A DNA stretch of 64,000 nucleotides from Eubacteriales bacterium mix99 (GTDB lineage: Bacteria; Bacillota; Clostridia; Caldicoprobacterales; DTU083), in NCBI GenBank assembly GCA_038396605.1, contig CP121690.1:1954500-2018499 (forward strand). Direction: 5' to 3'. Made by a program: the position numbers and the translations under genes. Under the pieces are notes generated by a model. That model searched no databases and had not been told where the DNA came from. It worked only from the letters and a program-made list of their open reading frames with translations. Position 1 is the first letter of the stretch, and each line of letters opens with the position of its first letter. This document shows, one piece after another, positions 3,580-45,379 of the stretch.

Positions 3580-3813
3580 GCGCATTTCGGCGTTGTCCGG
3601 CAACATTACCATTCATTATCCATCTTTTATGAACCGGGCTTTTTATTAGAATATTATAAAATGAGAAAGTCAGCGCTATAAATTTCGGCATATTCCCACA
3701 TTACATCTTGCATTATATTGGCAATGTTGATAGGATAATACATGCAACCGGTCTGCGGCAGACACGGACTGATGCAGCATTTTCAAAGATTTTATACCTA
3801 AAAAGGAGTCCTT

Positions 3814-6168
3814 ATGAGACGATTGATACGGGAATTGATGGATGGCTGGGAATTTGCTTTTGATCGAAAAGAGAACCGGGATTTTCATCCGGTCACGCTT
3901 CCCCATGACTGGGCAGTTGGGAGACCATTTAACCGATGGATGGATCAGGGGCCGCAGCAAGGCTTCTTCGACCGATGGGGGGTCGGATGGTATCGCCGAA
4001 AACTCAAAATTAAACCCAGGGAAGGGAAGATATATCTGCTTTGCTTTGCCGGTATCTTTGAGAACAGTACGGTCTGGATCAATGGCCGGCTTGCCGGACA
4101 AAACCGTTACGGTTACAGCAGCTTTCACTTTGATATTACCTCTCTGTTACAGAAAGGAGTAAATCACATTCTCATCAAAGTAGACAACACTGCGAGCCCG
4201 GTAGATCGTTGGTACAGTGGCGCCGGAATTTATCGCACGGTTTCTCTCCTGGAGGTGCCGGAGGACCATTTGAATGCTGGAGATATTTTTATTAAGAGCT
4301 CTGTGAAAGGCAAAAATGCACTCCTGACGATTCAAACGGGGAAAAAGGAACGGATTCGCGCAAGGGTCCTGGATGGGGAAACAGAGTATTCCGGGGAATC
4401 CGGATCCGGGGAAATTCAAATAGCCATACCGAATGTAAAGCTTTGGAGTGCCGCTTCTCCGAACCTGTATAAGGTGGTGCTTTCATTGTATCACGGAAGG
4501 CAAGTAATAGACGAAATCACCGAAAATATTGGAATCCGTCAGATTGTAATGGATCCCCGGGAAGGGATGCTTGTTAACGGTGAAACGGTGAAGCTAAGGG
4601 GCTTGTGTATTCACCAGGATGCGGGCTGCCTGGGTACGGCTGTGCCCAGGGAAGTATGGAGGGAAAAACTTCTGAAGCTGAAAGAAATCGGTTGCAACGC
4701 CATCCGGGCAGCACATCATATCTATACGCCGGAATTTTTGGATTTATGTGATGAGATGGGATTTTATGTGTACGAGGAATGTTTCGATAAATGGACCGGA
4801 GGCGCTTATGGCCGATATTTTGCGACTGAGTGGGAAAAAGACCTTACCTGCATGGTGAAAAGGGACCGCAACCACCCCTGCATTTTTATCTGGGGCGTGG
4901 GAAACGAAGTAGAACGGCAAGGACAGGCATCCATGCTGAAGATTTTGGGGAAACTGTGTGGGAAGGTTCGGGAGTATGACACGACCAGGCCCGTCACTGT
5001 GGCCTTAAATCCGCATTATAAAAAGGAATCAAATATCAATATGTCCGAAATCAGGGACATTCAGAAATTCGTGGACGAAACGGACGAAACTGAAATATGG
5101 GATGCAGATGAAAAAATTGACCGTATTCGAAAGATCTCAGAATATGTGGATGTCATTGCTTGCAATTACCAGGAGCCGTTCTATCCGAAGATTCACGAGG
5201 CGGTGCCGGACAAGGTGATTCTGGGAACAGAAATATACCCCTATTTCAAGAGCAGCCTGAATCAGATGCAGAATTATACGGAAGAAGTGCCATGGTTGGA
5301 TGTGGAGAAGTACGGATATGTGATTGGCGGTATGATCTGGACGGGAATTGATTATCTGGGAGAATCGATGGGCTATCCATCCAGGGGATGGTCGGGTTCT
5401 CTTTTCCGGACCAATATGGAAAGGAGATTCATATCCTATCTCTATCAAAGTTACTGGACAGAAAAGCCCATGGTTCGTTTTGCGGTCCTGGATTATTCCG
5501 TCCCGGACGAGGGGGTAAAGGAACACTGGGACTTTCCACACTATTATTCCCATTGGGAGTTCCCGCAATTTTCACGCGCAGTGATTCCCTTTGCAATAGC
5601 AAGCAACTGTGAAGAAGTTGAGCTGTATCTGGACGACAGAAGGTTTTATGTCAAGCGACCGGCGCAATTCCCGAACCGGCTTATTACCGGCTACCTTCCA
5701 TATACGCCTGGAGCGGTGACAGCAGTTGGCCTGAATCATGGCAAACAGGTATGCCGGCATCAGTTGAAAACACCGGGGCCTGCTGTTGCACTGACGTTCG
5801 ACGAGGCGGAAAAAGAAGTCTGCGCAGATAAGCCCTGTGTGGTGCAGATGACAGTACGGGCTATTGATCGGGAGGGAAATCCAATTTTCCAGGAAAACGC
5901 CGGTGTTCGGTTCCAGGTGGAAGGAAACGGCGGGATTATCGGGGTGGATAATGGGGATTTGATGTCATTGGAAACTTATCGTTCCCATGAGACACACCTG
6001 CTGCACGGGCAGGCAAGCATAGCCGTTCAACTGATCGGGGCAGAAGGACGGACGATCATCCGGGCATTTTCGGATGGTTTATTCTCTGGCCGGGCGATAA
6101 TCATCAGCCGGGAAAGTCCTGAGTGTCCTACTGAAGGGTGGGGGAAAAAGGAAGAGAAGGATCTTTAA
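3814..6168 (+). CDS. glycoside hydrolase family 2 (beta-galactosidase-like)
   Basis: A 784-residue GH2 enzyme without a signal peptide, so it is cytoplasmic. It probably removes a beta-linked sugar (galactoside or similar) from imported oligosaccharides. Domain order: sugar-binding jelly roll (about 1-150), Ig-like domain (160-250), TIM barrel (250-540), a DUF4982-like domain (about 560-640) and a final Ig-like domain (to about 770). The acid/base is E365 in WGVGNEVE and the likely nucleophile is E473 in ILGTEIYPY. The start ATG has AAGGAG upstream. It stands first in the hemicellulose region, separated from xylA by 240 AT-rich bases. GH2 substrate cannot be fixed from sequence; beta-glucuronidase or beta-mannosidase activity is not excluded. 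Confidence 0.88.
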   Translation: MRRLIRELMDGWEFAFDRKENRDFHPVTLPHDWAVGRPFNRWMDQGPQQGFFDRWGVGWYRRKLKIKPREGKIYLLCFAGIFENSTVWINGRLAGQNRYGYSSFHFDITSLLQKGVNHILIKVDNTASPVDRWYSGAGIYRTVSLLEVPEDHLNAGDIFIKSSVKGKNALLTIQTGKKERIRARVLDGETEYSGESGSGEIQIAIPNVKLWSAASPNLYKVVLSLYHGRQVIDEITENIGIRQIVMDPREGMLVNGETVKLRGLCIHQDAGCLGTAVPREVWREKLLKLKEIGCNAIRAAHHIYTPEFLDLCDEMGFYVYEECFDKWTGGAYGRYFATEWEKDLTCMVKRDRNHPCIFIWGVGNEVERQGQASMLKILGKLCGKVREYDTTRPVTVALNPHYKKESNINMSEIRDIQKFVDETDETEIWDADEKIDRIRKISEYVDVIACNYQEPFYPKIHEAVPDKVILGTEIYPYFKSSLNQMQNYTEEVPWLDVEKYGYVIGGMIWTGIDYLGESMGYPSRGWSGSLFRTNMERRFISYLYQSYWTEKPMVRFAVLDYSVPDEGVKEHWDFPHYYSHWEFPQFSRAVIPFAIASNCEEVELYLDDRRFYVKRPAQFPNRLITGYLPYTPGAVTAVGLNHGKQVCRHQLKTPGPAVALTFDEAEKEVCADKPCVVQMTVRAIDREGNPIFQENAGVRFQVEGNGGIIGVDNGDLMSLETYRSHETHLLHGQASIAVQLIGAEGRTIIRAFSDGLFSGRAIIISRESPECPTEGWGKKEEKDL

Positions 6169-41432: not shown

Positions 41433-41477
41433 AAAAGGAGGATCCCTTCCTGTTAACAGGAAGGGATCCTCCTTTTT
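41433..41477. terminator. perfect-palindrome bidirectional terminator
   Basis: A 44-base perfect palindrome centred on GTTAAC (arms AAAAGGAGGATCCCTTCC and its complement) flanked by A and T runs. It lies between rsiV (plus) and the Pro/Cys-rich spore protein (minus), whose stop codon sits on its edge. Confidence 0.92.
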
Positions 41478-42417
41478 AATGGAAGTAATTCACAATCGCC
41501 AGATCCCCTGCGGAAACAGCAACAATTCCGCTGTCATGATGGAATCCCGGATCCGATGAATCAATTTTCATGCGAAACTTTATGGTGTATCCGAAATCCC
41601 AGGCGGTAAGACTGAAAGAGACGCTGCATTGCCCTGCTTTTTGCTTTATTAGCCCTCGTCCCCGGACGGTCAGCATATTGGGGTTTTCAAGCAGCGGACA
41701 AGGTTGAATGAATTTTGGGCAATGGACTTCGATGTTTCCCGGTACAGACACGAAAACCGTTGGAATGGCGTGATCATCTTTTTCTGTTCGTAGGGTATAC
41801 TTCAGGGTAAGTTTGCCGCATTTGGCCTGCAGCGGGCAGGAACCGGCCTCCAGGAAGGCAGTGCCGCAATGGAAACAATCCGATGCATTGTTCACCGTTC
41901 CCTTTCCGCTCCCTTTTAGGGTACACTCCGTTCCGCATTCAGGTTTGGGAGGCGGGGGGCATGGCTTTTCGGGCCGACATGGCTTGTGAGGCGGGCACGG
42001 CGGCCTGGGGCACGGCTTGTGAGGCGGGCACGGCGGCCTGGGGCACGGCTTTTCAGGCGGGCACGGCGGCCTGGGGCATGGCTTTTCAGGCGTGCATGGC
42101 GGCCTGGGGCACGGCGGACCGGGAGCTACGGGAATCCGGTCCAACACGCTTTCAAGCTTTTCCTGCAGAAGCATCTGCAGTTTCATGGCTTCCCGTATGA
42201 TTTTCTCAACACCCGCATTTACTTCCCTGACCTCAGCGACAGAAGGAGACTTGGGAAGTTTGGAATTCAACACATACTGGATTTTTTCGCCTTCTGCATT
42301 GATGATATGAGCCAACCCCATCTCTTCCAGAGCAATGGAGGCCAGAAGCATATTCAGGGCATCTTCCCTGCTGATATCAATATCAGGTTTAATATTGGGG
42401 ATATTTGGCATGGACAT
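41476..42417 (-). CDS. putative exosporium/spore-surface protein with Pro-Cys repeats
   Basis: A 313-residue protein. Residues 1-115 form a leader (ISREDALNMLLASIALEEMGLAHIINAEGEK...) shared with the collagen-like protein next door. Residues about 118-165 are tandem repeats of the kind CPRPPCPPEKP/CPPHKP, rich in Cys and Pro. The C-terminal 140 residues look beta-rich with several Cys (CFHCGTAF, CPLQAKCGKL). The ATG at 42417 has GGAGGG seven bases upstream. It starts 23 bases after the collagen-like gene's stop, so the two are likely one operon. Disulfide cross-linking in the spore surface is suggested by composition. No homologue function is known to me. Confidence 0.75.
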   Translation of the reverse strand: MSMPNIPNIKPDIDISREDALNMLLASIALEEMGLAHIINAEGEKIQYVLNSKLPKSPSVAEVREVNAGVEKIIREAMKLQMLLQEKLESVLDRIPVAPGPPCPRPPCTPEKPCPRPPCPPEKPCPRPPCPPHKPCPRPPCPPHKPCRPEKPCPPPPKPECGTECTLKGSGKGTVNNASDCFHCGTAFLEAGSCPLQAKCGKLTLKYTLRTEKDDHAIPTVFVSVPGNIEVHCPKFIQPCPLLENPNMLTVRGRGLIKQKAGQCSVSFSLTAWDFGYTIKFRMKIDSSDPGFHHDSGIVAVSAGDLAIVNYFH

Positions 42418-42440
42418 ATTCAATCCCTCCTACGGCCGAG

Positions 42441-44136
<1,696 letters not shown>

Positions 44137-45262
44137 ATGATTACTGTCAGTTTATGTATGATTGTCAAAAATGAAGAGGACGTATTGGCACGCTGTCTGG
44201 AATCCGTATCGGATCTGATGGATGAGATGATCATTCTGGACACCGGTTCCACCGATGATACCAAGGCAGTTGCAGGCCGGTTTACGGAAAATGTCCATGA
44301 TTTTCAATGGATCGATGATTTTGCGGCCGCCCGGAATGCGGCCTTTGAGAAGGCCACCATGGAGTATATTTTCTGGTTGGATGCCGACGATGTTCTGGAA
44401 GAAAAGGATCGCATGAAATTTGCCGTCTTAAAGAAAAGTCTGGACCCGTCCGTGGATTCGGTAACTATGGAATATCATCTTGCCTTTGATGAGTATGGGG
44501 AATGTGTCCTTTCGCCTGCGTCGCAACCGCCTGGTAAAAAGGGCAAATCGATTTCGGTGGATCGGCGCAGTTCATGAATATCTTGAAGTTTTGGGAAATA
44601 TTTATCACAGTGACATTGCGGTTACCCATAAAAGTCTTCATCATGACAGCGACCGAAATCTGAAAATATATGAAAAACGGCTGGCGGGCGGAGAGATATT
44701 CTCACCCAGGGATGTCTATTATTATGCCAATGAGCTGTATGACCATAAGCAATATCAGAAGGCCGCTTCCTTTTACAAAAAATTTCTGCTTGATGGAAAG
44801 GGATGGGTGGAAGATAATGTTTCTGCCTGTGGAAAACTGGCGGACTGCTATCATTTTCTGGACGATGCAGAGCAGGAAATGGATGCAATCCTGCGTTCTT
44901 TCCGCTACGACAGTGCACGGTCTGAATTCTGCTGCCGTCTTGGATACCGCTTTATGGAGGACAACAATCTTTCCGCGGCAGTTTTTTGGTATAATCTTGC
45001 CACTATGCTGAAGCAGCCGGAAGATTCCTCCGGTTTTTATAATCCGGTTTATTCCACATGGCTTCCGCACCTTCAGCTGTGTGTCTGTTATAGTCGTGCC
45101 GGCAAGTACCGGCTGGCCCATCTCCATAATGAAATTGTGCTGAAGTATCGGCCCGGAGATGAACGGGCATTAGAGAACCGGAATTACCTGAAGGCTTTTC
45201 TCGAAGAAGAAATTCCGGAGGAGCAGGGTGGAACAGATTTGCCGAATGAGCCGGTTGGATGA
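44137..45262 (+). pseudogene. family 2 glycosyltransferase with TPR-like C-terminus, one-base frameshift
   Basis: The N-terminal GT-A domain has the family-2 start ITVSLCMIVKNEEDVLARCLESV, the sugar-nucleotide region DTGSTDDTK and the DxD-like WLDADDV. It reads normally to DEYG, then a run of four G at 44497-44500 pushes it out of frame and it stops at 44577. The continuation lies in the next frame (VSFRLRRNRLVKRANRFRWIGAVHEYLEV...) and runs to 45262, with TPR-like helices. Removing one G gives a 374-residue protein typical of clostridial GT2-TPR enzymes. AAGGAG precedes ATG 44137. It faces away from the collagen-like gene and probably glycosylates it. Confidence 0.85.
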
Positions 45263-45379
45263 AAGAAAAATTGCGGGTGGGTTTCGCTTGAAGAACAGCT
45301 ATATGCTATTCCTTTGCCTGAAGAAGGAAAATGCCAATAAATGTGGTATATATATATTGGAAGTCGGAGGTTGGAGCTT

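Follow-up and report, generated by a model that had tools for sequence, protein, structure and literature searches.

The window analyzed here, a 64,000-nucleotide stretch of the genome of Eubacteriales bacterium mix99, holds two overlapping open reading frames, 44137 to 44577 and 44483 to 45262 on the forward strand, that encode one family 2 glycosyltransferase (GT) with a TPR-like tail. Why is this enzyme spread over two frames? An earlier note on this DNA described a GT2 gene broken at a run of four G's (44490 to 44510) and took a one-base change there to be new or artefactual. The sequence and the comparison with relatives confirm the break, and a one-base change at the run fits all the data; what the note missed is that the divergent collagen-like neighbor is frame-broken as well. 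Two breaks in one small segment (Table 1) suggest that a dispensable spore-surface module was lost recently, with a local assembly error as the main alternative.

TABLE 1 Features of the segment that carries the broken glycosyltransferase gene (window positions)
Feature	Positions	Strand	Basis or remark
Segment that the congener lacks at this locus	41445..45279		blastn blocks stop at 41444 and restart at 45280
Third gene of the segment, intact, 315 aa	41476..42423	-	BclA-like N domain (43% identity to that of BclA)
BclA-type collagen-like gene, divergent from the GT gene	42441..43681	-	Frame-broken near 43019-43027
BclA_C C-terminal domain (matched stretch)	42441..42737	-	Pfam BclA_C, E 1.2e-33; frame after the break
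GXT collagen repeats, 18-base unit	42849..43387	-	Pfam Collagen, E 1.1e-19; tandem repeats
N-terminal domain of the BclA-type protein	43388..43681	-	70% identity to the D. aeronauticus homologue
N-terminal half, SgtA-like GT2 glycosyltransferase	44137..44500	+	Pfam Glycos_transf_2 (PF00535), E 8.7e-20; alignment, 77 relatives
Reading-frame change by one base	44494..44503	+	Includes GGGG 44497-44500
Out-of-frame tail of the N-half frame	44501..44577	+	Unrelated residues; stop at 44575-44577
C-terminal half in the other frame, with the remainder of the GT domain and the TPR-like tail	44501..45262	+	tblastn relatives, alignment

The frame break in the glycosyltransferase gene

The N half starts at ATG 44137, with AAGGAG upstream, and keeps its frame as far as the G run, which direct reading of the sequence locates at 44497 to 44500 within GATGAGTATGGGGAATGTG. 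The second frame is already open before 44483 and holds VSFRLRRNRLVKR and the residues that follow, as far as 45262. The sequence was aligned with 77 of the 81 relatives that have both halves in one frame; the other four translations (L007, L022, L056, and L073) contain a stop and were dropped. Frame 1 matches these relatives through DEYG and frame 2 matches them from NVSF on, which places the frame change in the short interval given in Table 1.

The LDADD sequence in the GT2/GT-A N half is a DXD-type motif and falls among the near-invariant columns of this alignment. The window's GT retains 96 of these 98 columns, so that the earlier statement that the rest of both halves is well conserved proves right. 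No second lesion is visible in the alignment, and the frame change is therefore either recent or an artefact. The label "TPR-like end" is weak, as TPR models match the C half only with E values of 0.013 to 0.058, all of them, the best included, below the Pfam cut-offs. A single uninterrupted frame for the whole SgtA-like enzyme is absent. Judged by its sequence, this GT is filed as a broken member of the SgtA-like spore glycosyltransferases and not as a working one.

Relatives of the glycosyltransferase

When 13 genomes were searched for the family, the bacterium's own genome and two others had matches. A scan of genome_contigs with the C half yielded 192 relatives, of which 80 were kept and used; these are 52 to 68% identical by tblastn, with Desulforamulus aeronauticus at the top (68%). 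Both halves lie in one frame at 81 of the 83 loci tested, the other two being the window's own locus and L083, where the N half is missing; the window's break is thus more than chance. The GT2-TPR homologues of Desulforamulus, Paenibacillus, and Desulfosporosinus, which resemble the window's gene over the C half within this range of identity, differ from it in being open in one frame throughout, apart from an in-frame stop in L056. Accordingly, 80 of the 81 relatives have no internal stop, and the stops of L007, L022, and L073, which come within 3 to 15 residues of the end of the alignment, are read as natural gene ends.

The homologue in L056 (Paenibacillus allorhizosphaerae, near 3653 to 4717) has its stop at about residue 52 (index 51) and is possibly a broken member of the family. 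Eight further homologues (L020, L024, L049, L053, L054, L055, L067, and L082) lie in far longer frames, of about 610 to 890 aa, which suggests GTs with extra domains.

Programmed frameshifting, or two polypeptides made from the overlapping frames, might yield a working split enzyme, and the second frame does contain ATG codons in the region of overlap, shortly before the G run. However, reading of the sequence reveals no clear ribosome-binding site ahead of these codons, the cut falls inside the GT domain, and such a design is seen in none of the 81 relatives with both halves in one frame. A split enzyme is therefore highly improbable, the least probable of the explanations considered.

The collagen-like neighbor

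The BclA-type gene starts at ATG 43681, with AAGGAGG upstream. Its N domain, GXY repeat, and BclA_C domain are all present, yet they do not share one frame. The GXT repeat is read in a single frame from 43387 down to about 43019 to 43027, within the repeat, and the other frame continues from there through BclA_C. In the whole-genome search, BclA_C matches contig positions 1996943 to 1997332 (E 1.8e-44); this is the only match, and no second BclA_C was found in the genome. In the homologues from L002 (D. aeronauticus) and L003, the three parts are read across without a stop, and in D. aeronauticus both the GT and the BclA-type gene are intact. The protein of the third gene (Table 1) has no Pfam match; its middle part is rich in Pro and Cys and has PCPRPPCPP repeats in place of collagen.

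With a one-base lesion in a short run in each of two genes of a surface-modification module, phase variation comes into question, that is, reversible on/off switching in which slippage at the G run and in the collagen repeats controls the glycosylation of the spore surface. Surface-modification genes often phase-vary. However, a four-base run is short for slippage-driven phase variation, and 0 of the 81 relatives are out of frame. Among the 41 of these 81 that were matched by the site pattern and viewed at the break, the codon of the G-run glycine varies (GGC, GGA, GGT, or GGG) and none retains a long G run, so that the long tract of varying length that phase-variable loci keep across relatives is not seen here. 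These observations make phase variation very unlikely.

Comparison with SgtA and other glycosyltransferases

As described in excerpts of the source (PMC7157674), Clostridioides difficile SgtA is a 358-aa protein with a GT-A domain and TPRs, its gene lies immediately upstream of bclA3, and the enzyme adds beta-O-GlcNAc to threonines of the BclA3 collagen repeats. The window's GT is of similar size and has the same N-terminal GT-A domain, a TPR-like tail, and an adjoining BclA-type gene with Thr-rich GXT repeats. It differs in that its gene carries a frame break and is transcribed divergently from the collagen gene; further, SgtA is compared by its description, and the function of the window's GT is predicted. 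By analogy in domain layout and neighborhood with SgtA as described, we infer that the window's gene once encoded an SgtA-like enzyme. Its substrate was probably a collagen-like spore-surface protein, the adjoining BclA-type protein being the probable one.

The relatives point in the same direction. Stretches of at least 12 GXY repeats, (GXY)12+, lie beside the GT at 57 of 80 relative loci, at a median distance of 736 bases, versus none of 102 stretches of the bacterium's own genome and its congener, a count in which the relatives are mutually dependent and the background comes from genomes other than theirs. Among PDB chains, SunS and GmaR have the GT2 N-terminal domain in common with the window's GT (E values of 5.4e-14 and 4.4e-27, respectively), and a sequence search with the C half gave no match to PDB chains. 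The acceptors of SunS, the S-glycosyltransferase of sublancin, and of GmaR are unlike the one predicted for the window's GT.

The genome and its congener

The genome is a single contig of 3.13 Mb, 97.8% complete, with two Spo0A_C matches and one SpoIVA match; no further copy of either GT half was found in it. The congener (G001), whose Dgt is 94% identical, has no match to the GT C half and in place of the segment carries another insert, about 5 kb long (L117, 10845 to 15843), in which we take the translations to represent a sensor kinase, a response regulator, and an ABC transporter. As the segment is replaced there, it is accessory in this genus, having been gained here or lost in the congener. 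The GC content of the GT gene (0.467; 37% of 340 pieces have an equal or lower value) gives no sign of foreign origin, and the bases preceding the G run have 0 matches in viral_contigs.

Frame breaks elsewhere in the genome

A hexamer-usage scan for frame switches over 464 kb was too noisy for counting breaks and was replaced by a comparison with the congener, in which the genes of 82 congener stretches were matched at 80% identity or more to 61 stretches (1.26 Mb, the window included) of the bacterium's own genome. This gave 4 multi-frame candidates per 235 genes and 226 kb, all of them counted as possible breaks; when one base was deleted from each gene as a control, 211 of the 235 planted breaks (90%) were detected. 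Two of the four are a YegS-like kinase and a Phd antitoxin by Pfam, both flagged at their N-terminal ends. The other two (L229, 828 to 1547 and 7126 to 9131) have no Pfam match and are possible degraded genes. In the reverse direction, 11 of 69 genes were multi-frame on the congener at 80% identity; this comparison was left uncounted because the congener sequence contains runs of N.

If all four candidates were real, the rate would be about 0.02 per kb, with about 0.05 breaks expected in the 2.4 kb of the two genes, and a Poisson estimate by hand puts two or more breaks there at about 0.001. The argument from clustering is post hoc: the first break directed the search to the neighboring gene, where the second turned up.

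The strongest competing explanation is that the organism has both genes intact and that the 18-base array or low local coverage defeated polishing of the assembly. Exactly one lesion is present per gene, each time in a short run, and the rest is intact, as the near-invariant GT columns and the BclA_C match attest; the collagen array is repetitive, and the one-contig genome hints at long reads. On the other hand, the rarity of breaks in the sampled genome makes a generally error-rich assembly less likely, although it speaks against uniform error and not against local trouble beside a repeat array, and the DNA at the GT break is unique and over 1 kb away from the array. Local consensus error thus keeps a substantial chance, short of even.

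Proposed recent loss of a spore-surface module

The most likely cause, to which we assign a probability of roughly 0.55, is the recent loss of a dispensable accessory spore-surface segment under relaxed selection; the probability of such a loss somewhat exceeds that of a local assembly error. In this reading, the module pairs a collagen-like protein of the BclA type with an SgtA-like GT2 enzyme, transcribed divergently from it, whose predicted role, by analogy with the C. difficile system, is to add O-GlcNAc to threonines in the collagen repeats. In each gene, a single recent frame change of one base would have cut the GT inside its GT domain, ahead of the conserved WIGAVHEY region, and deprived the BclA-type protein of its C-terminal BclA_C domain. 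With these losses, neither gene product is expected to function with the sequence as it stands, and spores without glycosylated collagen-like hairs would result.

Loss is favored because the GT break is unique among the relatives compared, the second break affects the partner gene, which is uninterrupted in L002 and L003, and collagen-like stretches adjoin the GT at most relative loci. The absence of the segment from the congener, the few breaks elsewhere, and the presence of sporulation genes argue for it as well. There is also a precedent: according to excerpts of PMC13188886, bclA1 is a pseudogene in most C. difficile strains of clades C2 and C3. As proposed for the window, a sporulating anaerobe there loses a collagen-like protein of its spores by way of a premature stop or a shift in frame; the main text of that paper makes no mention of sgtA or of a glycosyltransferase. 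Against loss, the evidence comes from one genome of the species, as assembled sequence alone, and neither gene has any other lesion, as an assembly error would also give. Further, the same excerpts warn that repetitive bclA loci are prone to artefactual pseudogenes (PMC13188886). A literature search joining frameshift with BclA, collagen-like, glycosyltransferase, and exosporium found no report.

That a collagen-like spore protein and the enzyme that glycosylates it are being lost together from a segment missing in the congener, recently, and perhaps still with polymorphism in the population, as a natural double loss of glycosylated spore hairs, is a more tentative proposal, to which we give well under an even chance. 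The kind of event is already known, as ordinary gene decay or as an artefact.

Implications

The locus is better described as a frame-broken SgtA-like glycosyltransferase gene beside a frame-broken BclA-type gene in a sporulating bacterium. This may be a strain without its sugar-coated spore hairs, or the assembly may be wrong at this spot. If the breaks are artefacts, they call for caution in annotating collagen-like spore genes. If they are real, they represent a natural knock-out of both partners of spore-surface glycosylation in a bacterium that retains spo0A and spoIVA, which would show that the glycosylation module is dispensable. For the GT family as a whole, its position beside collagen-like genes lends support to acceptor predictions in many spore formers.
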